From Pelagomonas calceolata (taxonomy: Eukaryota; Sar; Pelagophyceae; Pelagomonadales; Pelagomonadaceae): a stretch of DNA of 64,000 nucleotides. The notes beneath the pieces were generated by a model. It saw only the letters and a program-made list of their open reading frames with translations. It did not search any database and was not told where the DNA came from. Positions 8,168-60,912 of the stretch are shown in pieces. The translations under genes and the position numbers were made by a program. The stretch is taken from NCBI GenBank assembly GCA_918797485.1, contig CAKKNE010000005.1, positions 2,356,001 through 2,420,000 of the forward strand, written 5' to 3'. Each line of letters starts with the position of its first letter. The first letter of the stretch is position 1.

Positions 8168-8191
8168 GCTAGAGGCCTGTAAGACACTAGC
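8168..8191 (+). promoter_or_regulatory. GCTAGC-type palindromic motif, copy 1
   Basis: GCTAGA, spacer, then GTAAGACACTAGC: a near-palindrome with GCTAG/CTAGC ends. It lies 281 bp upstream of the nucleoplasmin-like start at 7887 and on the other side faces the 3' end of the NnrU-like gene. The rest of the 431-bp gap 7888-8318 shows no gene. See the finding on the motif family. Confidence 0.75.
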
Positions 8192-8318
8192 AATCGCAGC
8201 TTCTCGACGTTTACGCGACCTGCGCCGTGGCGACACAGAAAGATCACAACCGCCAACGGCCGAAACAGGAAGTCACAACCGATAAACTTACGAACACACG
8301 ACGACGAGCGCATCGGCA

Positions 8319-9047
8319 TCACGTCGCGACGAACGCCACAAAGACCGCCGCCGACGCGCCCAGGGCCAGCACCGAGTTCACGGGCTTGAGCTCGTCGAGG
8401 AGCGGCGCCCAGGCCTGCCGCCCCCGCAGCAGCGCGACGAAGGGCACGCCCGAGGTCTTCGCCTCGCGCTCCACGGAGAGCGACCCGCCCATGCCGCGCC
8501 GGTGCCGCGAGTCGAGGTGCGTGCCGTTGACGAGCGCCACGAGCGGGAAGCCGAGGGCCGCCGCCGCCGTGCCGGCGAAGGGCGTCATCGCCGCGCAGCC
8601 CAAGCCCAGAAAGCCCAAACTCCAGAACTGCGGGTGCCGCGTGACGCGCTCCAGTCCCACGACGTCCGTCGGCTTTTCCGCGCGCGCCGCCTTCAAGTCC
8701 AGCGGGCAGCCCGTGAAGTCGTCGGACATGGGGTTCGCGAGCGCCGGGGCCAGGTTGAACGCGCCGACCAGTCCTACACAAGTAAGCGCCGATCCTAATG
8801 CTAAAGACGGCGGGCCGACGGTCCGCACCCGCGGCCCCGGCCCGTGGCGCCACAGGCCGTACGCCACCGACGCCAGGGAGCAGGTCGACAGCAGGCCGTA
8901 GCAGGACTTGTAGCCGCGGTCGCCCAGGCGGTCGATGAAGACCTGCCGGTTCTCGGACAGGACCGCGTTCTCGGCGACGAAGAAGAGCCAGCCGCCGCCG
9001 CAGAGGTAGACGCTCGGGTGGGCGAGGACCTGGGCTGGCGGGAGCAT
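8319..9047 (-). CDS. NnrU/Z-ISO-family membrane protein (possible zeta-carotene isomerase)
   Basis: I start at the ATG at 9047 (242 residues); the upstream open frame to 9107 lacks an ATG. The protein has several hydrophobic segments and conserved NnrU-family features: an N-terminal membrane segment ending AENAVLSENR, the motif L-x-R-V-T-R-H-P-Q-F-W near the centre, then ALGFPLVALVNGTHLDSRHRR, and a conserved K-T-S-G-V-P-F. In plants and algae the family member Z-ISO isomerises 15-cis-zeta-carotene in plastids; bacterial NnrU is linked to denitrification. The His residues in the H-P and N-G-T-H-x-D motifs are the likely haem ligands (family knowledge). No clear plastid presequence is visible, so the localisation is open. 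Assignment to Z-ISO rather than another NnrU paralogue is an inference. Confidence 0.7.
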   Translation of the reverse strand: MLPPAQVLAHPSVYLCGGGWLFFVAENAVLSENRQVFIDRLGDRGYKSCYGLLSTCSLASVAYGLWRHGPGPRVRTVGPPSLALGSALTCVGLVGAFNLAPALANPMSDDFTGCPLDLKAARAEKPTDVVGLERVTRHPQFWSLGFLGLGCAAMTPFAGTAAAALGFPLVALVNGTHLDSRHRRGMGGSLSVEREAKTSGVPFVALLRGRQAWAPLLDELKPVNSVLALGASAAVFVAFVAT

Positions 9048-9073
9048 CGCTTCGAGCTGGTTATTTCGAGCAA

Positions 9074-9199
9074 TTGCGCGCAGCGAAGCCTGATCGCGGT
9101 GCTGCACGTCAGGAGACTGTGCTGGTCAGCAATTTTAGAGAATGCGCCGCAGCGACGGCGTGATCGCTGTGCTGTCAGGAGCTGTGCTTAGGTCAGCAC
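9074..9199 (+). repeat. Imperfect tandem duplication, about 68-bp period
   Basis: GCGCAGCGA...TGATCGC-GTGCTG...CAGGA...GGTCAGCA occurs twice, starting near 9074 and 9143, with several mismatches and small indels. It lies in the divergent gap between the NnrU-like gene (start 9047) and the PNPOx gene (start 9485). Confidence 0.6.
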
Positions 9200-9330
9200 C
9201 CTCTGCCAGAGTCTGGGCAACTTCGGACGCTGCTGCCGGGTAATGACGAACCGAATCAATGGCAACGAGGGCAGGCACCGCTATTTTGGTGCTGTTTTGG
9301 CTCCGTATGAGCTCTAGCAAACTCGCCCTG

Positions 9331-9353
9331 GCTAGCGTAGAGTAACATACTAG
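9331..9353 (+). promoter_or_regulatory. GCTAGC-type palindromic motif, copy 2 (diverged)
   Basis: GCTAGCGTAGAG followed by TAACATACTAG. It sits between the divergent NnrU-like (start 9047) and PNPOx (start 9485) genes, 132 bp before the latter. Confidence 0.65.
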
Positions 9354-9484
9354 ACTCCATCTCGCAAATCAGGCTGTAGGGTGAAGAGCCGATTCCGGTG
9401 TGTCGTGGGGGAAGTGGGAGCCACGACTCGCACCTCGAGGCTGCCCGGACCAGCGGAAGGCACCAACGCACAGTTACAGGGACC

Positions 9485-10162
9485 ATGCAGCGCTGGCTCT
9501 CGCGGACGTCGAGCCTCTTCTCGGTGCGGACGCACCGCCGCAACTGGACGCAGCGGGCCGGTGGTTTGGTGGAGGCCGAGCTGCCGGCGAACCCCATGCT
9601 GTTACTCGACGAGTGGCTGGCCGCGGCCCTGCAGGATGGCCACATCATCGAGCGCGGTTTTGTGCTGGCGACGTCTTCTGCTGAAGAGGGCCCGACGGCG
9701 CGGACCGTGGTCTGCCGCGACGTCTGCGAGGACGGGTCGATCACGTTTGGTACCAACCCTAACTCTCTCAAGGGCCGGAGTTTACGGGACGAGCCGCGCT
9801 GCGAGGCCGTGTTCCGGTGGGGCACGCGGCAGGTTCGGTTGAGAGGCACGTGTGCCGTCGACAATGACAATACAGAGGAGATGTTCCGGACGCTGCCCCG
9901 GCCGGCCAGGGTCTCGCTGGAGCTCCTCCACCCCATCGGTCAGGGGAACGACGTGTCCGAGGCAAAACATCAGGAGCTCCTCGCCGATGTCGAGGCGTCT
10001 TCCTTAGATCCGCAGACGCCGCCCGCCACGTTCACGGCGTACCGCATCACGGCCTCGACCCTCGAGTTCTACCAGTCGCTGCGCGAGGACTTTATTGTGG
10101 ACCGCTTCCTCTACGTGCGCGACGGCGCGGCCTGGAGCCCGCCGGTGCGTTTGGCCGGCTAG
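9485..10162 (+). CDS. Pyridoxamine 5'-phosphate oxidase (PNPOx) family protein
   Basis: From the ATG at 9485 the product has 225 residues, close to the usual PNPOx length. It follows the family pattern. There is an N-terminal acceptor region (ANPMLLLDEWLAAAL), then the FMN-binding strand FVLATSSAEEGPTARTVVCRD. N-P-N-S-L-K-G-R-S follows, then AVFRWGTRQVRLRGTC, and a C-terminal R-F-L-Y-V-R-D-G-A-A-W-S-P-P-V-R-L with the terminal Arg block. PNPOx enzymes oxidise pyridoxine or pyridoxamine phosphate to PLP using FMN. The terminus is WSPPVRLAG instead of the canonical W-x-x-x-R-L-x-P, and some FMN contact residues look changed, so a PNPOx-like flavoprotein (FMN_bind/Alr4036 type) is possible. The N-terminus (MQRWLSRTSSLFSVRTHRR) looks like a mitochondrial presequence. 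Confidence 0.75.
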   Translation: MQRWLSRTSSLFSVRTHRRNWTQRAGGLVEAELPANPMLLLDEWLAAALQDGHIIERGFVLATSSAEEGPTARTVVCRDVCEDGSITFGTNPNSLKGRSLRDEPRCEAVFRWGTRQVRLRGTCAVDNDNTEEMFRTLPRPARVSLELLHPIGQGNDVSEAKHQELLADVEASSLDPQTPPATFTAYRITASTLEFYQSLREDFIVDRFLYVRDGAAWSPPVRLAG

Positions 10163-10393
10163 AAGAAGCCCGTGCAATTGGACCAGCTGATGTACATACT
10201 GCAGCAAGCTCCTCCACCGCTTTGCGTCGCGCGCGCCGTCGCTCGGGCGCGCACGACGCCTCCCGTCGCTCCACCCTTCGCTCAATTCGCTCTCAAGGCT
10301 GGCTCACGCGCTCGCTCCGCACATGTCCGTGCTGAACGACGCGCCCTCTCCGTACATTCGCGTGCACATATCTATGCCTAAAAAACCAGTTAG

Positions 10394-11323
10394 CTAGAGG
10401 CTCGACGTCGGCGCCGCGTAGTTGCCGCGATTCGTATCGAAGACCTTGTTCCGGTCGCCGTACGGGTCGTTCTGCACGAAACTACCGGTGTCGCTCCACA
10501 TCCAGGCGCCCTCCTGGCCGTTGTACTCGAAGACGCCCGAGTGGCCGAAGCTCCGCCGCCGCGACGGCTTTTTGCTGGTCGCGCAGCGGTTCTTCGTCGA
10601 GGGCAGGGGCTCGAGCGCGGCCTCGCGCGCGGCCGCCATCTCGGGCGTCCAGTCGTCAAACCGCCGTTTATACGTAGGCGGTAATCGACGCAGAGGCAGC
10701 TTGTGGATCTTTGTGTAGTTATCTAAGCGCTGCGAGACTTTTGCGGTGTTCGCGCGAGCCCTCGTAAGCAACAGGTTCTGCCTATCCTCTCTTATTTTTT
10801 CATGCTCGGCCAATCCGGAACAGAACTGCTCGATGTTCCACCTAGCTTTGCCTCGTAACTTGGTAGACACCGGCATCTCGAGGTTACAAGTCTTGAAGTT
10901 GTAGGACGGATCGTCGATGGCCGCTTGCCTTATCGTTTGTTTTCTCGATTCGGGCATGACGTCGATCTTGAACTTGTGGGTTTTCGGTAGAGGTTCGAAG
11001 TTCTTTGGGGGCAGTTCTTCGGCTCGGAAATTGTAGGCGTATCTCGCCCTATCATGATCAGCGTTGATCCGAGTCCGCAGCCCAAATTTCTTGGAATACA
11101 AATGACCGGCGGAAGACGCGTTCCATAATGATTTCTCGCCAGGAAAGGTACCACCTCTAGCCCACTTTAACGAGGCGGCCTTGCTTGCTTTCTTCGAGGC
11201 TGGTATATCATCGGGGTGGAAGGTGGGTTCAGACGCAGCATAATTAATAGGGCCCTTGCAGGAGCCGATCTGGAAGCGGGCCTTGAGGAAGGGGTGCTTC
11301 TTTCTAGCGGGGTCGGCGCCCAT
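10394..11323 (-). CDS. Conserved-looking basic protein of unknown function
   Basis: A 309-residue single-exon protein, start at the ATG at 11323. It is polar, rich in Lys, Arg, Pro and aromatic residues, with no membrane span and no domain I can name. It has evenly spaced short motifs such as PKTHKFKIDVMPESRKQ, RARANTAKVSQRLDNYTK and a C-terminal GHSGVFEYNGQEGAWMWSDTGSFVQ. The composition (extended, basic, with W/Y-rich terminal motif) recalls microtubule- or axoneme-associated proteins, but this is only an impression. It converges with the PNPOx gene (231-bp gap, no gene seen) and its upstream region is shared with the M3 peptidase gene. Confidence 0.7.
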   Translation of the reverse strand: MGADPARKKHPFLKARFQIGSCKGPINYAASEPTFHPDDIPASKKASKAASLKWARGGTFPGEKSLWNASSAGHLYSKKFGLRTRINADHDRARYAYNFRAEELPPKNFEPLPKTHKFKIDVMPESRKQTIRQAAIDDPSYNFKTCNLEMPVSTKLRGKARWNIEQFCSGLAEHEKIREDRQNLLLTRARANTAKVSQRLDNYTKIHKLPLRRLPPTYKRRFDDWTPEMAAAREAALEPLPSTKNRCATSKKPSRRRSFGHSGVFEYNGQEGAWMWSDTGSFVQNDPYGDRNKVFDTNRGNYAAPTSSL

Positions 11324-11585: not shown

Positions 11586-11609
11586 GCTAGTATCTTACAG
11601 CCCGCTAGC
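11586..11609 (-). promoter_or_regulatory. GCTAGC-type palindromic motif, copy 3
   Basis: On the plus strand GCTAGTATCTTACAG then CCCGCTAGC. It lies 101 bp upstream of the M3 oligopeptidase ATG (11710) and 263 bp upstream of the divergent minus-strand gene (start 11323). The remaining gap 11324-11709 has no gene; a tRNA-like T-arm near 11490 is discussed under rejected items. Confidence 0.75.
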
Positions 11610-11709: not shown

Positions 11710-13951
11710 ATGTCCAAGCGCCAAAAGACCGATGAAGCATGCCCTTGCTGCGAATTGAGAGCACGCCAGGCCTCGAGCTGGCAATTCCTACCGCCGAACA
11801 TGGCGCCAAAAGGCGCCTGCCAGCAGTGCGTGCTGCCGCCGCCGCCGCCGCTAAGTGACTACCTGCCGCCCTTCGTCTGGCCGCGCACGGCGGCGGAGAT
11901 CGAAGGGCTCGCCCAAGGAGTGGAAATAGACTTCACGTCGACGATGGACCGCGTCGCCGCCGTCTCGGACGCGGACGCGTCCGTGGAGACGGTGTTAAGA
12001 CCGCTCATGGGCGCGCCGCACTACAAGACGAACAAGGCCGTCGTCGAAGCAAAGTTCCTCCAGCACTGCTCGACGGATTCTGCCGTGAGAGAGGCCGCGG
12101 ACAAGGCCGGCGCGCGATTCGCGGCGCTCAAGGCGAAGGGCCGAACGGACCCGCGCATCTACGGCCGCGTCTGCGCGCTGGCGGCGAAGAACACCGTCTC
12201 CGGTCGCGACGCGCACTTCGTGCAAGCATTGAAAGCTGGCTTCGAGCGCAGCGGCCTCAACTTGTCGCCGGCCGACCAGAAGAAGTTGCAGGAACTGCGC
12301 GACGCCGACGCCAAGGTCTGCGGCCTCTTCAAGAAGAACCTCGCCGAGGACAAAACCGAGCTCCTGTTCGACAAGAATGAACTCGAAGGGTGTTCTGATG
12401 CCTGGATCGCGGAGCGGACGAGGGACGGGAAAGTCGTCGTTACGCTCAAATACCCCGATTTGATCCCTGTGCTGCAGCAGTGCTCCGTCGCTGCGACGCG
12501 GCGGCGCGTCTCGCGGGCGCGGGAATGCGAGGCGTACGGCGCGAATTTGGACTACGTGGCGGAAGGCGTCGCGATCCGGAAGCAAATCGCCGACCTGCTG
12601 GGCTACAAGAGCTGGGCGCATCTCAGTACCGAGACGAGGATGAGCGGCTCGCCCGAGGCCGTCACGGCCTTCATGGACCCGCTGCTGGCCAAGGTCAAGG
12701 AGGGCGCGGCGCGGGACCTCGAACGCTTGAAATCTCTGAAGGGTGGGGCCCTCGAGGCCTCCGACGTCAGCTTCTACTCCGCTAAATTATTGAAGGAACA
12801 GTATGGTGTAGATCACGAGGCGGTACGCGCCTACTTTCCTCTCGATCATGTGGTGGCGACGACGCTCGAGATCTACCAGGAGCTGCTAGGCTTAGAGTTC
12901 ATCGAGATCGAGAAGTGTGGACGCGGCGTCGCGAAGCGTCTTCCGATCGTCGCGTCGATGGCGTGGAGGGGATCACGCCGTCACGCCGTCGCAGGTTCGA
13001 CACGTGGCACCCCGCGGTGCGCCTCTTCCGCGTCATTGATGTGGCGACGAAGCAGAAGCAGGGGTTCTTCTACCTCGACTTACATCCCCGCGACGGCAAG
13101 TACGGCCACGCGGCCATCTTCCACCTCCTAAAAAGATGGGGCGACCAGGTGCCGGTGGACTGCATGCTTTGCAACTTACCAGCTCCCTCGGCCGACGGCA
13201 AGCCGGCGTTGTTACGGCACTCGAACTGCGTCACGTTCTTCCACGAGTTCGGACATATTATGCACGGTTTATGTGCTTCCGGTGATGGCAACTCGACGAC
13301 GCTGGCGAAATGCCCGCGCGACTTCGTCGAGGCGCCGTCGCAGATGCTCGAGAACTGGTGCTGGACCGTCGAAGGGTTGAAGCGCCTGTCGAAGCACCAC
13401 GAGACCGGGGCGACGCTGCCGCGCGATTTGCTGGATAAAATGCTCGACGCTAAAAATGTCAACGTCGGGTTGAACATGGCGCGGCAGATCTATCTGTCTA
13501 CTTTGGATTTGGAGATCCACGGCACCGATCCGCCGACGACGGCGGAAGGTCTGCAGGCGCTCGTCGATCGGTTGCGGCCGGAGATCTCGCTCATCGAGAA
13601 CCCGCCGGGCGCGAACATGCTACGCTCGTTCGGTCACCTCATGAATCAATACAGCGCCGCGCTGTGTGGAAATCAAAATTTTACGGCGCGTTCGCGTCGA
13701 CTCCATGCCATCGACGCGCCGATTTCGACACAGGTGCCGCGTATTATGGCTATCTGTGGGCGGAAGTGCTCTCGGCGGATATGTTTAGCCAGTGTTTCGA
13801 GAAGGACCCCTTCGACGCGAAGGCGGGCCGGCGCTACCGGGACCTCGTCCTTGCGCCGGGCGGCGTCGGAAAGATCCTCGACCACCTCACCACGTTCCTC
13901 GGCCGGCCGCCGTCGCAGGAGGCGTTCCTCAAAAGCCGCGGCATCGCGTAA
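11710..13951 (+). CDS. M3-family oligopeptidase (thimet oligopeptidase/neurolysin type)
   Basis: Three exons, 11710-12914, 12995-13665 and 13734-13951, give 697 residues, the usual M3A length. The zinc-binding motif is H-E-F-G-H in FFHEFGHIMHGLC, with the downstream E of the EAPSQMLENWCW block. Other family marks are FFYLDLHPRDGKYGHAA, SFGHLMNQY and YYGYLWAEVLSADMF. It should cleave short peptides in the cytosol or an organelle; no targeting peptide is evident. An N-terminal Cys-rich stretch (ACPCCELRA ... GACQQCVLP) is unusual for the family. Both introns are introner-like elements. The first adds three codons near TWHPAVRLF and the second four codons (L-C-A-A) before YYGYLW; removing them restores the family consensus. 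Start chosen at the ATG at 11710; the upstream open frame is not family-like. Confidence 0.93.
12915..12994 (+). mobile_element. Introner element (intron 1 of the M3 peptidase)
   Basis: An 80-nt GT-AG intron starting GTGTGGACGCGG and containing the family core GTCGCGTCGATGGCGTGGAG. The flanks GATCGAGA and GTTCGACA match at 6 of 8 positions, consistent with an old 8-bp target duplication. Deleting element plus one duplicate gives an in-frame E-I-E-T-W-H-P. The terminal repeats are the most decayed in the window. Confidence 0.75.
13662..13733 (+). mobile_element. Introner element (intron 2 of the M3 peptidase)
   Basis: A 72-nt element from CTGTGTGGAAATCAAAA to GATTTCGACACAG. Inverted termini match apart from one substitution. 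Flanking duplicates are GCGCCGCG and GTGCCGCG (7 of 8). The spliced intron is 13666-13733, so CTGT plus one duplicate (12 nt) stays in the mRNA. Core ...CATGCCATCGACGCGCC is the reverse complement of the core of the first element. Confidence 0.9.
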
Positions 13952-13964
13952 ACATTAGTTCTAC

Positions 13965-18835: not shown

Positions 18836-19088
18836 CGTTGCTCCCTTGTGTGGATGTGAGCGCAGCGGTCGATGGGGCAGCGGTTCGCGGCTGCCTTTTT
18901 GTGCGCTGCCGTGCGTGCGCGCGGGTGCTGGAACGACTGTCTTTCGCGCGCCGCTGCAGCGCTTTGCGCAGCGCCGTGTCGGTTGGCCCAGCCCCAGGCT
19001 CATGCTAGTGTTCCCTAGCTATCTGCTTTTCCCCGCACGAGACGTCGTCGAGGCGGCCTGCGCGTTCTTTTCTCGCAATTGCTGCTTT

Positions 19089-19112
19089 CTAGTGTCTTTA
19101 CATGCCGCTAGC
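19089..19112 (-). promoter_or_regulatory. GCTAGC-type palindromic motif, copy 4
   Basis: Plus strand: CTAGTGTCTTTACAT then GCCGCTAGC. It lies in the 496-bp divergent gap between the kinesin (start 18835, 254 bp away) and the GNAT gene (start 19332, 220 bp away). Nothing else is recognised in this gap. Confidence 0.8.
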
Positions 19113-22032: not shown

Positions 22033-22213
22033 CGATGCTGGCGTGCAGACCAGCGCTGTCAGCAGCCCTGGCGACAGACAGCCTCGTGTGCTTTAGCGAT
22101 GCGGCGCGTCGATGGCGTCTGGCCGTGCTGTGTGTCTGTACCGCAGCCAGCGAAGCTGTGGAGCGTCTCTGGACGGCACGGCTGCGAGTTTGCACCGCAA
22201 CCTCAGTCGCTTC

Positions 22214-22236
22214 CTAGTGGCTTGCACGACGCTAGC
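22214..22236 (-). promoter_or_regulatory. GCTAGC-type palindromic motif, copy 5
   Basis: Plus strand: CTAGTGGCTTGCACG then ACGCTAGC. It is centred in the 390-bp divergent gap between TrpRS (182 bp from its start) and TRM112 (187 bp from its start). No other gene or RNA is visible in the gap. Confidence 0.7.
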
Positions 22237-24225: not shown

Positions 24226-24249
24226 GCTAGCGGCCAGTAAGACACTAGC
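24226..24249 (+). promoter_or_regulatory. GCTAGC-type palindromic motif, copy 6
   Basis: GCTAGCGGCCA then GTAAGACACTAGC, a very good match to the consensus. It lies 132 bp upstream of the Ubl-MYND start (24094); the other side is the 3' end of the ATM gene. Confidence 0.85.
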
Positions 24250-33658: not shown

Positions 33659-33682
33659 GCTAGCGTCCTGTAAGACACTAGC
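33659..33682 (+). promoter_or_regulatory. GCTAGC-type palindromic motif, copy 7
   Basis: GCTAGCGTCCT then GTAAGACACTAGC. It lies in the 347-bp divergent gap between ATM (start 33481, 178 bp away) and the DnaJ gene (start 33829, 147 bp away). No other feature in the gap. Confidence 0.85.
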
Positions 33683-37120: not shown

Positions 37121-37651
37121 AATGTGGGTGTGGGGGTTACTACGTTGTTCCGGCGCCTCAGCCGCACGCGCTGCGCCAGCGTTTCGGTTATCGCTGCGAG
37201 TTGTAGTTGGACGACTTGTAACTTGACTTGCACAGCTATGTGGCTCCGCACACAGTCCAAAAAAGCGGCGCCGCACCCGCTTGTCCTAGTGTGTCTAGGC
37301 CGCTCTCGGTCGCCTGCGGGAAGTCGCGGGACAAGTTGATTGAACGGGCGAACGTTGCACATTGTTCGGGGGGGTTTGCCGAGGCGGTTCTGCTTAGAAG
37401 GAGGTACGCTGTTATGAAAGAAGCGGCCCGCGCCCGCCGCCGATGAATCGGCGACGCGCGGTGTCTCCCCCCCAGGGGCTCCGCCCACTAGTCCTAGTAC
37501 CGTAACATCGACTAATAATCGTGCCGTAATTACGTAAAAAATAGTTATCAACACATCTACATTCCCACCGCAGCTCATCTCTTCGCCGCCGCCGTCGCCG
37601 CGCGCGTCCGCAGCCAGCCCGGCGGCCACTCGTCAGAGCCGCCACGGCCAC
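37121..37651. other. Intergenic region with a gene-fragment duplication
   Basis: A 531-bp gap upstream of the F-box/LRR gene and downstream of the transporter. Apart from the duplicated ORC6-like 3' fragment (listed separately) I see no gene. There is no GCTAGC palindrome; the closest text (ACTAGTCCTAGTACCG near 37488) does not fit. Confidence 0.5.
37571..37634 (-). repeat. Duplicated fragment of the 3' end of the ORC6-like/BRCT gene
   Basis: About 65 bp resemble the last codons and stop of the gene ending at 39263: read on the minus strand it gives D-E-W-P-P-G-W-L-R-T-R-A-A-T-A-A-A-K-R-stop against D-E-R-P-P-D-R-L-R-T-R-A-A-L-T-A-A-K-R-stop. Same orientation, 1.7 kb away, directly after the stop of the transporter gene. 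Probably a local partial duplication with no function of its own. Confidence 0.7.
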
Positions 37652-38940: not shown

Positions 38941-39192
38941 TTTTCAATCAGAAATCAACGCAGCATCCGCATACTGCCATCCGCAGCGCTTGTGAGCCCT
39001 AGTCCGCGCGCGCACAGCGCGCAGCGCTGCATGAGTTGCAGTGCAGCAGCTGGCAGCGCTGATTTTGCTCGCCGAGAGCTGGGCTGGTCACGTGTAACCA
39101 CTGCGCACTGCTCACCAGGATGTGCTATAACACAGATAGCACAGCAGGGCGATAGGATCGCTGCGACACGTGCAGTTCGTCGGCTAGACATC

Positions 39193-39215
39193 CTAGTGTC
39201 TTTACAGACGCTAGC
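39193..39215 (-). promoter_or_regulatory. GCTAGC-type palindromic motif, copy 8
   Basis: Plus strand: CTAGTGTCTTTACAG then ACGCTAGC. It lies 253 bp upstream of the transporter start (38940) in a 322-bp gap whose other side is a 3' end (39263). Nothing else seen in the gap. Confidence 0.85.
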
Positions 39216-41375: not shown

Positions 41376-41398
41376 GCTAGCGGCATGTAAGATACTAG
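41376..41398 (+). promoter_or_regulatory. GCTAGC-type palindromic motif, copy 9
   Basis: GCTAGCGGCAT then GTAAGATACTAG. It is 27 nt before the ankyrin-gene ATG (41426) and 140 bp upstream of the divergent ORC6-like start (41236). Confidence 0.85.
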
Positions 41399-41425
41399 GA
41401 AGCCTTGGTCAAACTTCACGCGAGT

Positions 41426-45639: not shown

Positions 45640-45662
45640 GCTAGCGGCAGTGAGACACTAGC
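45640..45662 (+). promoter_or_regulatory. GCTAGC-type palindromic motif, copy 10
   Basis: GCTAGCGGCA then GTGAGACACTAGC, 129 bp upstream of the coiled-coil gene (start 45791). A partial copy (GCTAGCGTAAAG) lies at about 45555 in the same gap. Confidence 0.85.
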
Positions 45663-46739: not shown

Positions 46740-46763
46740 GCTAGTGTGTTACATGCCGCTAGC
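46740..46763 (-). promoter_or_regulatory. GCTAGC-type palindromic motif, copy 11
   Basis: Plus strand: GCTAGTGTGTTACAT then GCCGCTAGC, 215 bp upstream of the gene starting at 46978. Confidence 0.85.
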
Positions 46764-48332: not shown

Positions 48333-48545
48333 CGTCAGCAATTGCGCGTACGCTGCGTTTGCACTGAGAGTATTGACAGCCTTGTGTTTGTTTGCAATGG
48401 CTGCAGCACGAGGAGCACAAACGGTCGCTTGCGTCAATGGTGACGGTCAATGGCTATCACGTAACGTACAACAATACGCTCGTGCGGCCTCCTGCGACGG
48501 GTGCAAGACGCCACAAGACGCCACAAAGCCGAAGGCTCTCACGAC

Positions 48546-48566
48546 CTAGTGTCAATGAGGCACTAG
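48546..48566. promoter_or_regulatory. GCTAGC-type palindromic motif, copy 12 (symmetric variant)
   Basis: CTAGTGTCAATGAG then GCACTAG, a more symmetric variant with CTAGTG/CACTAG arms, 214 bp upstream of the DUF1826 start (48332). The 344-bp gap shows no gene. Confidence 0.6.
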
Positions 48567-48676
48567 AAGTTTGTCCGCGTGACACGCACCGTATCAATAT
48601 AGCCCGCGTTGATACCAGTCCTACACCGCAACAATAGACACGATAGAACAAGCAAACATGTAAAGACAGACAAATA

Positions 48677-50191
48677 CTAGAAGCTCTTCCACGCCGGAAA
48701 CACGAGCTCCTCCTTCGTCAGGCGCCACCGCGTGTGGCGCCTCAGTTCCGCCAGGAACGCCGGCGACGCGCCGCCGTCGCCTCCTGGTGGCAATTTATTT
48801 GGCAAAGGCACGTCGGCCAGGTCGTCGGGGTGCAGCTCGCCCACGTAAAACTCGCGCAAATATAAAAAGGACTGGCGCGAGACGTGGTACAGCTCGAACA
48901 TCACGGTACTATCACAATTCAAGGCTTGTTGCGGAATAATCGAGTCCCCACCAGGATGCTCCGACAGCCATCTACTAATATCGAGGACCATGCCGTCGAG
49001 CAGCAGCCAGGTCTCGCCGCGCGGCGTCGTCTGGGAACCCTTCGCGTTCCGTCGCCGCACCTCATCCAAACGAATGGGGGACTTTCTCACCCTCTCCTCG
49101 AAGCTCCCGAGCACCTTCCTGCAATCTTCCTCGAGGCCCCGTATTTTGAGAGCGAGGGCCGCTTCTAACAATTCCGGGGCGAGCGTCGGGTCGAAGCGGA
49201 ACGGCGCCCCCCGCCTCTCGTGCTGCAGATACAGTAACACCCGATCAAAAGTGCAGCAGTCGAGCGGCACTCGTATTTCCTCCGCACTCGTGTACTTGCC
49301 CCTGCCGGCCTGCGCGGCCTTGGTCAGGGCGAGGCACGGTCGTAGCAACGCGCGCTTCACGGGGAAGACCTCGTCATCAGAACAGGTCACGTCCACGCAG
49401 TCGACCTGCTGATTTTTCGGGGGCACCTCGACTCCATTCTCCAGTAAAATGCGCGTCCCGGGCGGCGCCGCGCCGTCGGTAATCACGTAGGCGGCCGTCG
49501 AGGCCGTGACCACGCCCCGATACTCGTCGTCGTCATCATTATCCTCGTCGTCATCGTCCTCCCGGTCCGCCCGCACTTCCACGACGCGCGCCACGACAAC
49601 GACATCATCAATCGTCAGGACGTGGACCTCGGGCACCGTCACGACGCACCCGAAGCAGTGCTTCCCGAGCGACGCACTCAACTTGACCGCATCTATTGAA
49701 ACGTCCTTTGACGCGTCGCGGCGCCGCACCTCGAAGACCACCGCCGCGAGCTCCGAGTCGGGCTTGACCACAACGTCCGTGGCGCCGATGGCGGCCTCGC
49801 GCGCGTCCAGCGCCTCGTGCCGCCCGCGATAGAGCGTCATCGACGGCGCGTCGTGGACGCACACGCGGTTATTCAGGCGCTGGACGTCATTTAGAGAGAT
49901 GCAGCCTTCGGGTATGCTGTCGTCAATGACCAGGCGTTGCACGTGCGCCGGGTGCTCATGGAAGTGCACATGCACACAACCGTGCGCGTCGACCGCGTCC
50001 CGGAAGGCCGGTGGTAGGTCCCGGTAGCGCGCATAGGCGCAGGCGGATTGTGTTGGTGCGTCTACTACTTTGAGCGCGCACTGCTCCTCCTCGGTGGCGA
50101 GTTTTTTCGACGACGGCACGAGGAACTCCTTCACGTGGCCCTTGCGTATGGCGCCGGCTTGCTGGTTTTGGGTGCCGCGGCGCCAGGCCAT
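48677..50191 (-). CDS. BTB/SKP1-like and cytochrome b5 domain fusion protein
   Basis: A 504-residue single-exon protein. The N-terminal 270 residues are unassigned and beta-rich, with LVIDDSIPEGCISLNDVQRLN resembling the double-psi barrel of CDC48-type N-domains. About 265-365 forms a BTB/SKP1-like unit: VDCVDVTCSDDEVFPVKRALL, a hinge RVPLDCCTFDRVLLYLQHER, then APELLEAALALKIRGLEEDC, very like SKP1 or BTB-kelch folds. About 385-460 is a cytochrome b5 haem domain: TWLLLDGMVLDISRWLSEHPGGDSII with the axial H-P-G-G and a second His in YHVSRQSFLYLREFYVGEL. It may place a haem domain on a ubiquitin-ligase adaptor; function is inference. The frame shows no breaks. Confidence 0.8.
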   Translation of the reverse strand: MAWRRGTQNQQAGAIRKGHVKEFLVPSSKKLATEEEQCALKVVDAPTQSACAYARYRDLPPAFRDAVDAHGCVHVHFHEHPAHVQRLVIDDSIPEGCISLNDVQRLNNRVCVHDAPSMTLYRGRHEALDAREAAIGATDVVVKPDSELAAVVFEVRRRDASKDVSIDAVKLSASLGKHCFGCVVTVPEVHVLTIDDVVVVARVVEVRADREDDDDEDNDDDDEYRGVVTASTAAYVITDGAAPPGTRILLENGVEVPPKNQQVDCVDVTCSDDEVFPVKRALLRPCLALTKAAQAGRGKYTSAEEIRVPLDCCTFDRVLLYLQHERRGAPFRFDPTLAPELLEAALALKIRGLEEDCRKVLGSFEERVRKSPIRLDEVRRRNAKGSQTTPRGETWLLLDGMVLDISRWLSEHPGGDSIIPQQALNCDSTVMFELYHVSRQSFLYLREFYVGELHPDDLADVPLPNKLPPGGDGGASPAFLAELRRHTRWRLTKEELVFPAWKSF

Positions 50192-50312: not shown

Positions 50313-50336
50313 GCTAGCGTTCTGTAAGATACTAGC
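50313..50336 (+). promoter_or_regulatory. GCTAGC-type palindromic motif, copy 13
   Basis: GCTAGCGTTCT then GTAAGATACTAGC, 122 bp upstream of the BTB/cytochrome b5 start (50191). Confidence 0.85.
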
Positions 50337-50340
50337 AGAT

Positions 50341-50403
50341 GTAGTCGAGATGGAAGATACCCTTAGCAGAGGTAGTCGAGAATGCTAGATACCCTTAGTA
50401 GAG
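50341..50403 (+). repeat. Tandem duplication, 31-bp period, over a stop codon
   Basis: GTAGTCGAGA...GATACCCTTAG occurs at 50341 and 50372 with a few mismatches. The second copy includes the stop codon of the glycosyltransferase gene (50385), so the duplication copied its 3' end into the neighbouring promoter gap. Confidence 0.8.
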
Positions 50404-51496
50404 AGTCGTCGCTGCCGCCGACGCCGTAGGGCGCAACAACACGCGGCCGCGATCCAGACGAACGACGAGACCACCGGCACGACGAGGACGTTCTTCTTGG
50501 GCCGCCCCGCGAAGGCGTCGCGCTCGTGCCACGACCGACCTCTCAGATGACCCACGAGCTTGAGCGGCGTCACTTTTCCGGTGTAGTAGCCGTCGCCGAT
50601 GATGATGACATTTCCCGCGGCGAAGGCGTGCGCGGACCGGTACTCGAGGAAGCTCTCCGTGAGGTGGACCGGTCCTGTCGTCGTCAGCACGGAGAGGAAG
50701 GGCCCGAGGAGCCGCCGCGGGAGGCTCGTCGCCTTCGCCGGCATCGTCTCCAGGACGTGTTTGAGGAACGGCGACCCCGCGCTCGCCAGCATCGTGTCCG
50801 GCGACAGAAAAGGTCCGAACTGGTCCGCGCGCGCCACTACGAGCTCCGGGCAGAGCGCGCGGACGGGCTCCCAGGACCGCCGCGCCATCACGTCGAGGTC
50901 GGCGTAGAGGCCTGCGTGGAAATCAAATGTCGCGGCGACCTCCACGCCATCGACGCGACGCCTGCGTGCACGCGACACACTTGTTGATTTCCACACAGGT
51001 AGATGCCGCCGTACTTGTGCAGAATCGCGTAGCGCGCCATGTCCGCGCGCTGGACCCAGCGCGGGTAGCTCTTGTACGTCGCCCAGAGGTGCGGATACTC
51101 GGTAAGAATCAACCAGTCGACCGCGTCCTTTGACCAGAGCACGTACTTCCACTCGTTCGCGAGCGCGCCGGGTGCCAATATGATTGGGTCCTCCACCTCG
51201 ACGGCGCGGTGGCGGTTCAGCCACGTCGCCTGCGCGCGGCGCCACGGCGACGGCATTTCTTCGTCGTCGTCCTTGAGTCCGAAAATTTGGTGGACGTACC
51301 GCGGCGGGCATTGCGGTGCGACAAACGCCGCCTCCCGCGGCGGCGTCGGTAGAAGCGCGCCTTCTGCGAAACCAATCCGAGTCCCGACGTACGCCGTAAG
51401 AGTTACGGCCGCCACAAGCGTCGTCGCAATTGCGCAGATCGCGGCGGCGGCGCGCGACCGGTAGTCGACGCGTGACCATTCGTCCGCCCGAGTCAT
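50385..51496 (-). CDS. DXD glycosyltransferase (Gly_transf_sug/OCH1-like), type II membrane protein
   Basis: Exons 51496-50995 and 50911-50385 give 342 residues. A signal anchor (RSRAAAAICAIATTLVAAVTLTAYVG) precedes the domain. Core motifs are CPPRYVHQIFG, NEWKYVLWSKDAVDWLI, then RADMARYAILHKYGGIYL...ADLDVMAR with the D-x-D nucleotide-sugar/metal site, as in OCH1 mannosyltransferases and MIPC synthases. A C-terminal hydrophobic stretch (VLVVPVVSSFVWIAAACC) near the end suggests a second span, as in MIPC synthases. It probably adds a hexose to a lipid or glycoprotein in the Golgi. An introner intron interrupts the catalytic motif itself, leaving four extra codons (L-C-L-Y) between GGIY and ADLD. 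Confidence 0.88.
50912..50998 (-). mobile_element. Introner element (intron of the DXD glycosyltransferase)
   Basis: An 87-nt element with the best-preserved ends: CTGTGTGGAAATCAAC and TTTGATTTCCACGCAG. Core GTCGCGTCGATGGCGTGGAG. Flanks GCATCTAC and GCCTCTAC match 7 of 8. Intron 50994-50912 (83 nt). The footprint is CTGT plus one duplicate. Confidence 0.93.
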
Positions 51497-51679: not shown

Positions 51680-51701
51680 GCTAGCGTCCTAAGACACTAG
51701 C
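51680..51701 (+). promoter_or_regulatory. GCTAGC-type palindromic motif, copy 14
   Basis: GCTAGCGTCCT then AAGACACTAGC, a 22-nt version, 199 bp upstream of the phosphoglycerate mutase ATG (51901) and 184 bp upstream of the divergent glycosyltransferase start. The 404-bp gap holds no gene. Confidence 0.85.
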
Positions 51702-51900: not shown

Positions 51901-53034
51901 ATGCAGAGAATGCTGCGCGCCGCCGCGCGCGCCGCGCGACGACGAGAAAACCAGCGCTCCGTCTCCACGCTCATCCTCCTGCGCCACGGCCAGTCGAAGT
52001 GGAACGGCGCGGACGCCATCTTCTCGGGCTGGGTCGACGTGCCCCTGACGGTGAAAGGAAGGGTCGAGGCCGTGGGAGCGGGCCAGTTGTTGAGAGAAAG
52101 AGGCTTCCCCGCGAAAAGGGTGGACGTCGCCTTCACGTCCAATCTACAAAGAGCGCACGAGACGTGCGAGCTGGCCCTGGCGTCGATGGCCGGCGCGCAG
52201 CAGGACACGTGGCACTCCGATCGTATTAGAAGGGACGCGCGCCTTAACGAAAGGCATTATGGGAGCTTGCAGGGCTGGCGCAAGGCCGACCCGGAGCTGG
52301 TCCAGGGTTTTGGGTCTGACATGCTCCTGAGTTGGAGAAGGACGATGGACGCCAAGCCGCCGCCCATGACGAAGGAGCACCACCACTACGATCCAGATGC
52401 GCCGCGCACGGAGACTCTGCGAGACTGCCAGAAGCGCGTCGTCGCGTGCTGGGAGACGACGATCGCGCCTGCATTATTCGAGGAGGAAAACTTACCGACG
52501 GAGATCGAGAACCGCACGATTTTGGTGGCGGCCCACTCCAATACTCTAAGGATGCTCATGGCCTACTTCGACGAGGTCGCCGACGAGAAGGTGCCGGAGC
52601 TCTACGTGCCGAACGCCGTGCCCATCATCTACCGCTTCGATCCTAGGACAAGGAAGCCGCTCTCGCGCAAGCTGGACACGCAGAGCGGCGGCTCGCACGC
52701 GCGGTGGCTCCTGTCCCCCTCAAATCACGCCCAGGTCCAGGAGGCGCTGCAAAGTGGCGGCATGCTCACGCGGGCGCTGTTCGAGTCGATCGACGTCGAG
52801 CGGAAGGGCCGGCTGACGGCGGCGGAGTTCGACGCCGGCATCAAGACGCTGATGGCCGACGCGGAGCACGTTGACTGCGTCGTCGTCGGCGTCGCGAAGA
52901 AGATCGCGCGCGAGTCCGTGACGCCGAACTGCTCCGTGTCGCTCGCCGAGTTCGAGGAGCTCGCGCAGGCGGCCGTGAGCGAGCTGCACGCCGAGGAGCA
53001 CATCGACTACGACGCGGAGCACCGGTGGGACTGA
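51901..53034 (+). CDS. 2,3-bisphosphoglycerate-dependent phosphoglycerate mutase, probably mitochondrial, with EF-hand-like tail
   Basis: From the ATG at 51901 the product has 377 residues, longer than the usual 230-250. The N-terminus (MQRMLRAAARAARRRENQR) is Arg/Ala-rich without acidic residues, a mitochondrial-type presequence. The mutase domain has the phosphohistidine site LILLRHGQSKWN, then FSGWVDVPLT, the catalytic Glu in LNERHYGSLQGW, and a second His in VAAHSNTLRML. It interconverts 3- and 2-phosphoglycerate. About 295-375 resembles paired EF hands: LFESIDVERKGRLTAAEFDAGIK (a D-x-x-x-K-G-x-L-x-x-x-E loop) and ESVTPNCSVSLAEFEELAQ. The RHGES Glu is replaced by Gln, a conservative change. 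The divergent partner is the DXD glycosyltransferase. Confidence 0.9.
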   Translation: MQRMLRAAARAARRRENQRSVSTLILLRHGQSKWNGADAIFSGWVDVPLTVKGRVEAVGAGQLLRERGFPAKRVDVAFTSNLQRAHETCELALASMAGAQQDTWHSDRIRRDARLNERHYGSLQGWRKADPELVQGFGSDMLLSWRRTMDAKPPPMTKEHHHYDPDAPRTETLRDCQKRVVACWETTIAPALFEEENLPTEIENRTILVAAHSNTLRMLMAYFDEVADEKVPELYVPNAVPIIYRFDPRTRKPLSRKLDTQSGGSHARWLLSPSNHAQVQEALQSGGMLTRALFESIDVERKGRLTAAEFDAGIKTLMADAEHVDCVVVGVAKKIARESVTPNCSVSLAEFEELAQAAVSELHAEEHIDYDAEHRWD

Positions 53035-54838: not shown

Positions 54839-54874
54839 ACGAACCCCCTCCCCCTCCCTTCCCCCCTAAGTGTA

Positions 54875-57586: not shown

Positions 57587-57593
57587 CAACAGA

Positions 57594-58532
57594 TTACTTC
57601 TCATCCTCCTTCTCCCGCCTTCTCCGCCGCACGTTCGCCGACACGTCGTAGACCACGTCCGTCGCCGCCGCGCCGCGCGCCGCCACGAACAGATAATCCG
57701 AGAGCCGGTTCAGGAACTTGGCCACCGCCGCCACGCGCGCGGCGTCGTCCGCCAACTGCTCCTTCCTCAATTCCTCGGCCCGCCGCCAGACGTGGCGCTC
57801 GGCCCTTCTACAGACCACGCGCGCGTCGTGCAACGCAAGACAAGCTAAAGGACCCGTGGCCACGACAAAATTCTTGAGGGGCGGCAGCGCCGCGTCCAGG
57901 GCGTCGACCTCCTCCTCGAGGGCCGCGATCTCGGCATCATCAAACGCGTCCCGCGCCGCGCTCGCGTACGCGCCGTCGCCGCTCCGGTCCACGACTGTTA
58001 AAGTCGCGCCGGCATCCAACAACAGCGCCTGCGTTTTTAGGAGACGCGACCGCACATCCACACCGCCCTCTTCAACAGTCGTGTGGAAGGCCGCGATACC
58101 CAATTTGACGCCCAACTCATCGACGTCGCCGACGGCCTCGTAGACCGTGGCGAACTTTGGGGTCTCCGCGTCTCGCGACCCGACCAACCGCGCGCGGCCG
58201 CCGTCGCCCTTGCGCGTGTAGACGCGCGACGCTCTCGTCGGCTTCTCGGTGGCAAAGGCGCGGACATTGTCCGTCGTCTTCTCTGTGGAGAAGCCGCGGA
58301 CGTTGCGCCAGCCGTAGCAGCAGTGCCGGCACATCCTACCGCAGCAGCCGCCGCGCGCTCGATGGGCCAGCTCCGTGAAGACCGTGTAGCCCGTGGTCGG
58401 GTCGTCGTAGGTCTGGAGGCCTCGTGCCACGGCGGCGGCGTGGGCTTCGACCGCGGCCGGCGGGATGTCCGGTCTCGCTATTCGTGTGGTGCGCGCTGCT
58501 GTCCTCGCTAGTCGGGCAGCGCGGGCGGCCAT
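57594..58532 (-). CDS. DUF5522/cobalamin adenosyltransferase (MMAB/PduO type) fusion
   Basis: A 312-residue protein. Residues about 40-78 are a DUF5522 unit: TTGYTVFTELAHRARGGCCG-R-MCRHCCYGW, with the C-C-G ... C-R-H-C-x-Y-G cysteines. From about 103 a PduO-type ATP:cob(I)alamin adenosyltransferase follows: VYTRKGDGGRARLVGSRD (the T-R-x-G-D-x-G-x-T ATP-binding motif), DVDELGVKLGIA, then VCRRAERHVWRRAEE (R-x-x-E-R) and KFLNRLSDYLFVAAR (N-R-L-S-D). It makes adenosylcobalamin, the cofactor of methylmalonyl-CoA mutase, in mitochondria; an Arg/Ala-rich leader fits. Between the domains is a doubled R-[GA]-F-[SA]-T-E-K. It converges with the methyltransferase/DUF6816 gene with a 7-bp gap. Confidence 0.9.
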   Translation of the reverse strand: MAARAARLARTAARTTRIARPDIPPAAVEAHAAAVARGLQTYDDPTTGYTVFTELAHRARGGCCGRMCRHCCYGWRNVRGFSTEKTTDNVRAFATEKPTRASRVYTRKGDGGRARLVGSRDAETPKFATVYEAVGDVDELGVKLGIAAFHTTVEEGGVDVRSRLLKTQALLLDAGATLTVVDRSGDGAYASAARDAFDDAEIAALEEEVDALDAALPPLKNFVVATGPLACLALHDARVVCRRAERHVWRRAEELRKEQLADDAARVAAVAKFLNRLSDYLFVAARGAAATDVVYDVSANVRRRRREKEDEK

Positions 58533-58729: not shown

Positions 58730-58750
58730 GCTAGTGTCTTACGCCGCTAG
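58730..58750 (-). promoter_or_regulatory. GCTAGC-type palindromic motif, copy 15
   Basis: Plus strand: GCTAGTGTCTTAC then GCCGCTAG, 198 bp upstream of the cobalamin adenosyltransferase start (58532), in a 324-bp gap bordered by a 3' end on the other side. Confidence 0.85.
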
Positions 58751-58763
58751 GTCACGTGCCTCG

Positions 58764-58836: not shown

Positions 58837-58856
58837 CGCCAGTCGCCGCGACCAAA

Positions 58857-59714
58857 CTAACGGATCCCCGGCGCCCGCATGCCCCCCGAGATGCCCTGGA
58901 GCGAGTTCTTGAGGGCCTTCGTGTCCGCCCACGCGCTGTGTAGATAATCATCATCATCCGCTTCCGCCAAAGCCTTCAGCTCCTCCTGTCTTTTGAAATA
59001 GTGGGCCATCATCGCCTTGCGCTCGCCCTCGGAGACGCACGGCTCGCGCGCGGGCGCGCCGTGGCCCGGCTTCTGGAGCTTGGCGACGACTTTGGTCTTT
59101 TCATTTTTGCCTACACGATCGCGCACGAGCTCCTCCCGGACAAATTCCTTCCCGGCGCACCACAACTGAGCCGTGGCCGGGTCAAGCAACCCCTGCTGGG
59201 CCTGCGTCCCATCCAAGCCCTCTTCACCCTCCAACGCACTATACACGGGATCGTGCTTCGGCAGGCCCATGGGGAAGGCCATGGTCACGGCTCCTTTCAT
59301 TGTAGTTAGTTTCTCCATCATACCTTCCTTGGTCAACGCTTTCCTCGCTAATGCGCGATCCTTCGAGATGTAGGCCTCGGCGTCCCGACAGACGTCGTTG
59401 AACACGTTCGTCATCTGCTCGCCGATGCCATTGCCCGTCCTGCTACCGCTCGGATCCTCCTTATAGTTATCAGCCTTCTCGACGAACGTACCACCGTTCA
59501 ACTGTTGGATGTGGTCGATGCCTTCTTCCCCATGTGGTTTACTCGGACCATGTTCTGCTAATTCAGACATGGCCCCACACAGGTACGCGATGCGGACGCG
59601 CGTGTTGTTTATGTCGACGAGTTCTCTCAGCAAAGTGTCATTGCTTGTATCACCCGTCGTCTCGTACAAGAACTGGTCCTCGCCGCCCTGGAACTTGACG
59701 TGGATGACGACCAT
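58857..59714 (-). CDS. CFAP298: Cilia- and flagella-associated protein 298
   Basis: A 285-residue protein with clear end-to-end similarity to human CFAP298 (C21orf59/Kurly): start VVIHVKFQGGEDQFLYETTGDTS, then RIAYLCGAMSELAEHGPSKP, the conserved LTTMKGAVTMAFPMGLPKHDPV, and GTQAQQGLLDPATAQLWCAGKE. The GKNEKTKVVAKLQKPGHGAPAREP box and the C-terminal QEELKALAEADDDDYLHSAWAD-K-ALKNSLQG follow. The protein is needed for outer dynein arm assembly and motile cilia in animals. Its presence says this organism has, or recently had, a motile flagellum. Single exon; the ATG is at 59714. Confidence 0.95.
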   Translation of the reverse strand: MVVIHVKFQGGEDQFLYETTGDTSNDTLLRELVDINNTRVRIAYLCGAMSELAEHGPSKPHGEEGIDHIQQLNGGTFVEKADNYKEDPSGSRTGNGIGEQMTNVFNDVCRDAEAYISKDRALARKALTKEGMMEKLTTMKGAVTMAFPMGLPKHDPVYSALEGEEGLDGTQAQQGLLDPATAQLWCAGKEFVREELVRDRVGKNEKTKVVAKLQKPGHGAPAREPCVSEGERKAMMAHYFKRQEELKALAEADDDDYLHSAWADTKALKNSLQGISGGMRAPGIR

Positions 59715-59898
59715 CTTCTTTGGCTTTGCGGCGCTACGGCTGTTTCACGGCTTTAGCTGGGGCGCGTCGACAGCGTCTACGCGTCGCAAGTCTTGCGCTC
59801 GCTGCTAGATGGCTGTCGACGGCTTCGTGCAGAAATTTTGGGGGCGAGTGGCAGGGTTTGCGGCGTAGCGCCAAAAAGACTTCGATAAATCCGAGCCA

Positions 59899-59918
59899 GC
59901 TAGCGTATACATACTAGC
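59899..59918. promoter_or_regulatory. GCTAGC-type palindromic motif, copy 16 (short)
   Basis: GCTAGCGTATACATACTAGC, a nearly perfect 20-nt palindrome, 185 bp upstream of CFAP298. A second short text, ATAGTATCGGCACTATCGGC, follows at 59938 and resembles one near 6950. The 421-bp gap 59715-60135 has no gene. Confidence 0.8.
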
Positions 59919-60135
59919 TGGTACTCTAGGTGTTACGATAGTATCGGCACTATCGGCCCGCGCCAGCCGCCGGACGAATTGGCGACGCGACGCGCGCCAC
60001 TCGTCCTAGCACCGTGCGAGCTTGTAACCACAACCCACGCTCCCGTCGTCGCTCTACGTCGTCGCCACCGACTAGTTCCTCCTGCTCAAATGGAATACTT
60101 ATTGACCTCCGCGAAGGAAGAGAACGACGAACCAA

Positions 60136-60888
60136 CTAGAGGTCCGCCGTCGACGGCTGCGCCGCCGGCGAGAACGCCGCGTCGTCCACATCATACCCCG
60201 CCGCGGCGAACTGCGGCCCCGCGTCGCCGCCGCCGTCGCGCTGCATACTTTCAGGAGACGTCACGGCCACGTAGCCGTTCAGCGCGAGCGTGCAGAGTAA
60301 TATGATGGCCATCACGACGCCAAAAGTGCCCATCGCGAAGAGGAAGAGCACGCCCAGCACGGCCACAAAAGCCTCGCCTCGCAGGGTCGTGACAAAGGGC
60401 ACGACGCTCCTTAAAATGGACAGGGGCGGATCTAATTGTAACTCGACGCACGCTAGAGCTGCCGCAAAAAACGCCGTCTCCAACCCAATAATGACGCTCA
60501 AATACGAGCCTTCTTCACTCATGAAAGCGATGGCGCAGGCCACGCACAAAATGCTCACCAGTAAATTGAGGCCCTTGGCCAAGGCGGGGACGTCCAGCCC
60601 GCCCGTGACGGCGTCCATCCTCAACCCAGGTGAGGGCTGGCTGTAGAAGTTGTCGTCGTAGTTCCGCGACGGGAGCGTTGTACTAGGAGGCGCGTCGGGC
60701 TCGAAGGCCGCGTAGGGGGCGCTTTGGGAGTCCTCCAGCTTTGCGTAGACGCCGAAAGTGGCGCCTCGGCGTCCGCGTGACCCGTGCTTCGAGACGCGCT
60801 GTGGAGGTTGCGGTGTTGCGTACAGCCTAGGATCTGGTATGTCTCCAGCAGCCGAGGAACAGGCGCGCAGACGAAAAGCGGGATACAT
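60136..60888 (-). CDS. Four-span membrane protein, COPI-associated/TVP18-like
   Basis: From the ATG at 60888 the product has 250 residues; the longer frame to 61014 would read through palindromic copy 17, so I prefer the internal start. After a polar 80-residue N-terminus come four hydrophobic spans (LNLLVSILCVACAIAFM, LSVIIGLETAFFAAALACVEL, a segment around VAVLGVLFLFAMGTF, and VVMAIILLCTLALNGYVAV). Between spans two and three lies the loop DPPLSILRSVVPFVTTLRG. The layout matches Golgi COPI-associated proteins and TVP18 (loop E-F-x...P-F-x-x-x-x-G-R-G) but the motif is weak. The tail is Gly/Asp-rich. Golgi vesicle transport is an inference. Confidence 0.65.
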   Translation of the reverse strand: MYPAFRLRACSSAAGDIPDPRLYATPQPPQRVSKHGSRGRRGATFGVYAKLEDSQSAPYAAFEPDAPPSTTLPSRNYDDNFYSQPSPGLRMDAVTGGLDVPALAKGLNLLVSILCVACAIAFMSEEGSYLSVIIGLETAFFAAALACVELQLDPPLSILRSVVPFVTTLRGEAFVAVLGVLFLFAMGTFGVVMAIILLCTLALNGYVAVTSPESMQRDGGGDAGPQFAAAGYDVDDAAFSPAAQPSTADL

Positions 60889-60912
60889 GCTAGTATGTCT
60901 TGGTGCGCTAGC
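60889..60912 (-). promoter_or_regulatory. GCTAGC-type palindromic motif, copy 17
   Basis: Plus strand: GCTAGTATGTCTTG then GTGCGCTAGC. It abuts the ATG at 60888 (minus strand) and lies 108 bp before the divergent ATG at 61021. Confidence 0.8.

Follow-up and report, generated by a model that had tools for sequence, protein, structure and literature searches.

A two-part inverted CTAG element ahead of gene starts in Pelagomonas calceolata, and its putative role as a two-way promoter site

Why should a short inverted sequence recur, usually once, in gap after gap ahead of the genes of the pelagophyte Pelagomonas calceolata? The question arises from a 64,000-nucleotide stretch of contig CAKKNE010000005.1 (assembly GCA_918797485.1; C5:2356001-2420000), referred to here as the window, in which an initial annotation had listed 17 copies of a "GCTAGC-type palindrome". 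All 17 are present, four of them beginning one base earlier than reported (19088, 22213, 39192 and 48545). We searched the window, which has a GC content of 63%, and the whole assembly of 32,445,274 bases in 8 contigs; the genome as published is described as 32.4 Mb with 63.6% GC, in six chromosomes and two organellar contigs, 7 and 8, for chloroplast and mitochondrion (PMC9481584). We found the element to be one of several thousand copies that are concentrated in gaps holding at least one gene start (5' gaps), and we argue that it is probably a proximal promoter element.

Across the assembly, the relaxed pattern CTAGCGN{1,9}AASRYACTAG has 3,470 matches, 1,686 on the forward and 1,784 on the reverse strand, against a single match when the pattern is read backwards; patterns or sequence blocks read backwards served as controls throughout. 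A strict pattern has 185 matches, and a pattern with a spacer one base above the usual has 50, each against 0 for its control. From the 17 window copies we also built a bipartite matrix, with parts of 9 and 11 bases and 0-7 bases between them. In the window this matrix finds 18 sites at score 14 and 16 at score 20, and the reversed window gives none at either score; an independent 200-kb stretch of another chromosome (the C1 block) gives 46 sites at score 14 (2 when reversed) and 39 at score 20 (0 reversed). For counts of context and gene class we used the matrix minus one symmetric copy, calling copies at score 20 "strong" and taking score 14 as the looser cut-off. The sequence examined in context amounted to 294 kb of the 32.4 Mb (the window, the C1 block and three 10-kb pieces), in addition to selected upstream stretches. 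These 294 kb contain 61 strong copies and 72 copies at score 14, with 0 and 2, respectively, in the control. The same sequence has 43 matches to the relaxed pattern; we therefore estimate, by extrapolation, that the genome holds about 4,900 copies (scaled by pattern) to 6,700 (by density).

The position of the copies relative to genes is far from even. Of the 61 strong copies in the 294 kb, 58 lie in 5' gaps, which account for 20.3% of that sequence (binomial 1e-36). A further copy falls within a called gene, close to that gene's start, and the remaining two sit where fetched pieces end. Among gaps of at least 60 bp, the fractions with a copy are 31/51 for divergent, 25/56 for tandem and 0/31 for convergent gaps (56/107 5' gaps versus 0/31; Fisher 7e-9), and the contrast is also seen per gap base, with 58 matches in 59.7 kb of 5' gap versus 0 in 13.4 kb of convergent gap (p 1e-5). 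Excluding the window, which makes the count independent of both the initial annotation and the matrix, leaves 24/41 divergent, 16/42 tandem and 0/26 convergent gaps with a copy (40/83 versus 0/26; Fisher 9e-7). An even spread over exons and convergent gaps, which would have spoken against a 5'-region element, was not seen. In gaps shorter than 700 bp, the distance to the called ATG has a median of 180 bp and quartiles of 143-240 bp (n=73). Both orientations occur, as the initial annotation had stated, and neither is preferred: 12 copies in tandem gaps point with the gene and 13 against it. The once-per-gap rule also holds, with few exceptions, over the 294 kb. Fifty-four of the 5' gaps have one copy, two have two and 51 have none; random placement would give about 11.7 gaps with two or more copies, and 0 of 5,000 runs gave two or fewer. 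In the window itself, 11 of the 18 matrix matches are in tandem gaps, 7 are in divergent gaps and, by our home-made gene calls, none is in a called gene or a convergent gap. The claim that all copies lie 0 to about 290 bp from an ATG stands for 16 of the 17, for which the nearest called ATG is at most 252 bp away, and fails for the copy at 8168, which has no clear start nearby.

TATAAA was seen once among 87 upstream regions with the element. A search for a core motif at a fixed distance between element and ATG showed just that CTGCA(C) is loosely enriched on the side facing the ATG: CTGCA occurs 62 times on the sense strand in 14.3 kb between element and ATG, compared with 22 times in 13.2 kb upstream of element-free genes, and 40 of the 62 are within 100 bp of the ATG. 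This excess may belong to the start region, possibly as an initiator or leader signal.

The window copies are 20-25 bp long and degenerate, and what all 17 have in common is two CTAG words 14-19 bp apart. Forty-one copies of the commonest length give the consensus A GCTAGCG[G/T]C.. TGTAA[G/C]A[C/T]ACTAG[C/G] AA, in which the CTAG words of both halves are near-invariant. The element thus consists of two unequal half-sites, inverted and separated by a variable spacer: the left half is CTAGCG, and the right half, read from its own side, is CTAGTG and is longer (GTAAGACACTAGC). Of the palindrome described by the initial annotation, the inverted arms remain but the symmetry does not, and the literal GCTAGC...GTAAGACACTAGC form accounts for just 2 of the 18 window matrix matches. 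At score 20, 35 of 38 copies have C at position 6 and A at position 19; the asymmetry is therefore preserved, and the element is not a true palindrome. Among 66 copies at score 16, spacers of 0, 1, 2, 3, 4, 5 and 6 bases occur 4, 1, 5, 10, 41, 2 and 3 times. Outside the site, a logo of the 41 copies shows conservation of one or two A's per side and little further.

The near-absence of information in the flanks past those one or two bases bears on the possibility that the element is a tiny mobile repeat, or a remnant of paired terminal repeats, spread by transposition. High copy number and inverted CTAG arms would fit such an origin, another dispersed repeat is present in this genome, and in one pair of copies the flanks match at 83% over 75 bp. 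However, that pair is one of just 7 BLAST matches at E 1e-3 obtained from 61 flank sets; two others come from sites 33 bp apart, with overlapping surroundings, and the remaining four are 18-30 bp long. The strict 5' placement and near-single copies also speak against transposition, and we consider a tiny mobile repeat very improbable. A larger transposon or terminal repeat, which the initial annotation had already argued against, was set aside on the same flank evidence. Less probable still is an RNA element, a hairpin formed in 5' leaders or upstream transcripts. One strand of the consensus could, as read from sequence, pair at 10 positions with G-U wobbles, and on that strand pair 6-19 could form in 35 of 38 copies; but pair 8-17 could form in just 13-14 of the 38 copies, and pair 9-16 in 21-23 of them, the alternatives seen most often are mismatches without clear compensating pairs, and both orientations are equally common relative to genes. 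We set the hairpin aside on these orientation and pairing counts. An Rfam scan of the window at gathering thresholds found tRNA only. Since neither pairing nor flanks are conserved, both the RNA hairpin and the larger repeat are disfavoured.

We propose instead that the element is probably a proximal promoter element: a putative double-stranded binding site for a sequence-specific protein that acts as a general, two-way factor. We read it as a general promoter-opening site because it is orientation-free, nearly always single, two-part and inverted, and set at a preferred distance from the ATG. The protein would be a dimer, or a single protein with two DNA-binding modules, that recognises as half-sites GCTAGCGK and, as its unequal and inverted counterpart, GCTAGTGTCTTAC (GTAAGACACTAGC on the opposite strand), with the CTAG words held about 18 bp apart, with some freedom; the constant difference between the halves points to two distinct DNA-binding modules. 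With one such site occupied in each promoter region, usually 140-240 bp ahead of the start codon, the chromatin of that region would stay open, such that transcription could start on either side and divergent genes could share a single copy. Since there is no orientation bias, the bound complex would not itself set direction. A chromatin boundary, insulator or replication-start site that lies in promoter regions incidentally would likewise be expected to be nearly always single per gap and without orientation bias, but boundaries would be useful in convergent gaps too, where 0 of 31 have a copy, and the preferred distance to the ATG also argues against this alternative, which we regard as improbable.

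The promoter-opening site that we propose would serve mostly constitutive genes, with histone and light-harvesting genes using other signals. The initial annotation had suggested that the element may mark one gene class, and we addressed this using upstream stretches fetched for 9 of 37 DEAD matches, 8 of 93 light-harvesting matches and 14 of 27 proteasome matches, together with 6 histone stretches; one DEAD gene (L044; no readable start, no match) and one histone stretch (L034; not a divergent pair, no match) were left out. Among the eight DEAD helicase genes whose start could be read, six carry a copy at 183-293 bp upstream, each scoring above 20; in the proteasome set, copies lie 111-260 bp upstream of 10 of the 14 genes at the looser cut-off of score 14 and of 7 at score 20. 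By contrast, none of the eight light-harvesting genes has a copy within 300 bp (one of them has a strong copy farther out, at 385 bp, and another a weak match at 441 bp), and one of five divergent histone pairs has a copy, the exception (L033) carrying it within an insert of that histone gap. Combining families, and counting copies within 300 bp, the contrast is 16/22 for DEAD-helicase and proteasome genes versus 1/13 for light-harvesting and histone genes at score 14 (Fisher 3e-4), and 13/22 versus 1/13 at score 20 (Fisher 0.004). These small samples suggest that the element is tied to DEAD-helicase and proteasome genes rather than to histone and light-harvesting genes; because the families were hand-picked and the samples partial, we treat the link to gene class as a lead. 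The same contrast would fit a growth regulon, in which the same kind of putative protein site would serve one condition-dependent programme, such as growth, the cell cycle or a circadian rhythm, and the 51 of 107 5' gaps that lack the element would fit a regulon too. Nonetheless, several thousand copies would be a large number for a single regulon, as would a share of about half of the examined 5' gaps, and the window genes with the element are functionally mixed, including a kinesin, a tRNA synthetase, a FAT/PI3-PI4-kinase/FATC gene, the chaperone DnaJ, a cobalamin adenosyltransferase and the cilia protein CFAP298. We therefore think a regulon unlikely, though less so than a boundary or origin.

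Several points weigh against a general two-way promoter site, or against the counts from which we argue for one. Genes were called with a simple home-made codon-pair scorer that ignores introns and approximates starts, and the ATG distances depend on these calls. Under stricter calls, a copy is found in 1/25 and 2/20 convergent gaps, although these exceptions perhaps reflect real genes that were then missed. One strong copy (score 31.4, C1 near 1004960) falls within a called gene, close to the start of that gene, and lowering the cut-off to score 14 adds one weak coding and one weak convergent match in the C1 block. Almost half of the 5' gaps have no copy at all, and within divergent gaps the copies are not significantly more central than a uniform distribution would make them (Kolmogorov-Smirnov p 0.052). 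A spacer that varies from 0 to 6 bases, with 41 of 66 copies at the mode, is loose for a rigid dimer. The contrast between gene families weakens to 16/23 versus 3/13 (p 0.014) if copies at any distance are counted and the dropped DEAD gene is restored, and to 13/23 versus 2/13 (p 0.033) at score 20. Genes that have the element and genes that lack it do not differ in a crude codon score (p 0.94). Lastly, homology searches for the factor with zf-BED and BEN, the two families searched, gave no matches and thus no candidate protein, with the controls silent too.

If the element is a general promoter site, it may be the 24-bp site of a lineage-specific pelagophyte promoter factor, one each at about half of promoter regions; shared two-way promoters would then be part of the basic layout of the genome, and histone and antenna genes would form a separate, independently controlled class. 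We hold this broader picture more tentatively, at somewhat below even confidence. A long, specific and nearly always single sign at about half of the promoter regions examined nonetheless offers a handle for fishing out the factor. The element could also help to predict promoters and true gene starts, and genes could be sorted by whether they have it or, like the histone and antenna genes, fall in a class that does not.

Palindromic sites ahead of housekeeping genes are well known from other eukaryotes, among them the Drosophila DRE/DREF site (TATCGATA) and NRF1-type sites, but their sequences are unrelated to that of the element. The sites of the yeast general regulatory factors Abf1 and Reb1 open promoters and are orientation-free, and that of Abf1 is two-part with fixed spacing. 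The element is likewise orientation-free and, like the Abf1 site, two-part; it differs in sequence and in having 0-6 bases between its halves where the spacing of Abf1 is fixed. Among the literature compared, the nearest working analogue is the vertebrate CGCG element (TCTCGCGAGA), which is palindromic, occurs in housekeeping promoters and drives transcription in both directions, with 93% of its instances in annotated unidirectional promoters (PMC6192621). Both elements are near-palindromic, lie ahead of gene starts and show no orientation preference; the CGCG element is tied to housekeeping genes and the present one, in small samples, to two housekeeping families. Two-way drive has been demonstrated for the CGCG element, whereas here we infer it. 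The CGCG element is a continuous 10-bp palindrome with a CGCG core, mostly in unidirectional promoters, whereas the present element spans about 24 bp, has unequal half-sites with CTAG cores and a variable spacer, and is richest in divergent gaps; its consensus, A GCTAGCGK..TGTAASACACTAG, contains neither TCTCGCGAGA nor TATCGATA. Because sequence, length and half-site structure differ, it is not a CGCG element, though it may work like one. Closer in phylogeny, the oomycete core promoter motifs INR, FPR and DPEP are also stramenopile promoter motifs, but they are oriented, near the start site and unrelated in sequence, whereas the element is unoriented; oomycetes also have unnamed motifs 75-300 nt upstream without orientation bias (PMC3599244). 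The strings "palindrom" and "ctagc" occur 0 times in the text of that paper. The early promoter of the Aureococcus virus AaV, AAAAATGA (PMC5917014), is a motif from a pelagophyte virus, but it is viral, AT-rich and unrelated in sequence.

The initial annotation knew of no described element with this sequence, and we found no account of one in the full-text literature searched (supplements and most subscription papers excepted) using its letters, pelagophyte or Aureococcus promoters, palindromes and cis-regulation as queries. Twelve letters of the right half had no full-text match; for the 9-letter string GCTAGCGTC, all of the matches listed look unrelated by title; and the motif or promoter words tried occur zero times in PMC13284251, PMC12054182, PMC10366177 and PMC3520976. 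Sharing with viruses was set aside after zero exact and zero relaxed motif matches among IMG/VR viral contigs, from which records of or near this genome may be excluded. A prokaryotic contig collection gave one motif match, about chance level by a rough estimate.

Table 1. Copies of the element in the window, with one doubtful match and one neighbouring open reading frame (ORF); positions are those of the window.
Feature	Position	Strand	Context
Element copy GCTAGAGGCCTGTAAGACACTAGC	8168..8191	+	no clear gene start within 300 bp
Element copy	9331..9354	+	divergent gap: NnrU-like 8319-9047 (-), PNPOx-like 9485-10162 (+)
Element copy	11586..11609	-	divergent gap: 10394-11323 (-), peptidase M3 11710- (+)
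Element copy	19088..19112	-	divergent gap: kinesin 17204- (-), GNAT acetyltransferase 19443- (+)
Element copy	22213..22236	-	180 bp upstream of class-I tRNA synthetase gene (W/Y type) 20905-22032 (-)
Element copy	24226..24249	+	131 bp upstream of MYND-finger gene 22817-24094 (-)
Element copy	33659..33682	+	divergent gap: 3051-aa FAT/PI3-PI4-kinase/FATC gene (-), DnaJ gene (+)
Weak extra match, doubtful	37285..37307	-	score 15.8
Element copy	39192..39215	-	251 bp upstream of 37831-38940 (-)
Element copy	41376..41399	+	139 bp upstream of 39263-41236 (-)
Ankyrin-repeat ORF	41426-42223	+	starts on other side of copy 41376; low coding score
Element copy	45640..45662	+	128 bp upstream of 45791-46555 (+)
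Element copy	46740..46763	-	214 bp upstream of 46978-47445 (+)
Symmetric degenerate copy, both arms CTAGTG-like	48545..48567	.	212 bp upstream of DUF1826 gene 47460-48332 (-)
Element copy	50313..50336	+	121 bp upstream of cytochrome-b5-domain gene 48677-50191 (-)
Element copy	51680..51701	+	divergent gap: 50385-51479 (-), histidine phosphatase 51706- or 51901-53034 (+)
Element copy	58730..58751	-	197 bp upstream of cobalamin adenosyltransferase gene 57594-58532 (-)
Element copy, shortest (20 bp; shortest spacer)	59899..59918	+	184 bp upstream of CFAP298 gene 58857-59714 (-)
Element copy	60889..60912	-	divergent gap: 60136-60888 (-), histidine phosphatase 61021- (+)

Two of the copies in Table 1 raise questions of gene annotation. 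The copy at 60889 abuts the ATG called for the left-hand ORF, whose true start may fall inside the ORF. For the copy at 8168 the nearest start is more than 460 bp away or undefined, because the ORF to its left (7098-7706) is partly read-through of a tRNA-Arg gene; this tRNA (TCG anticodon; 7588-7660, minus strand) overlaps the 5' part of the ORF, such that a naive call translates the tRNA. Elsewhere in the window, peptidase M3 is matched in consecutive portions by the plus-strand ORFs 11710-13131 and 13164-13958, which probably belong to a single intron-interrupted gene; as expected, the element is absent from the gap that separates them. A bacterial-type SBP_bac_5 gene (extracellular solute-binding protein family 5; 43844-45505, plus strand), possibly of bacterial origin, has no element in its 5' gap.

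All five divergent histone pairs (L029-L033, on C1, C2 and C3) have in common a strongly conserved promoter gap, which contains the inverted words TTTTGGCG and CGCCAAAA and, nearby, AATGAAATTGTGAC and GTCGCAAAATGATTCG; a CCTAGT word that resembles a half-site of the element is found in four of the five. A k-mer search for a second promoter motif in element-free gaps led instead to a separate dispersed repeat with the core CTCCGCCCACTAGTCCTAGCACC, present at 37475-37507 of the window and matched 238 times genome-wide with at most one mismatch, versus 0 for the backwards control. Similarity extends over about 150 bp (81%) between the window copy and C1 near 1126260, and over 113 bp (82%) between that copy and C1 near 1108000, so this second repeat looks like part of a longer, perhaps mobile, repeat.

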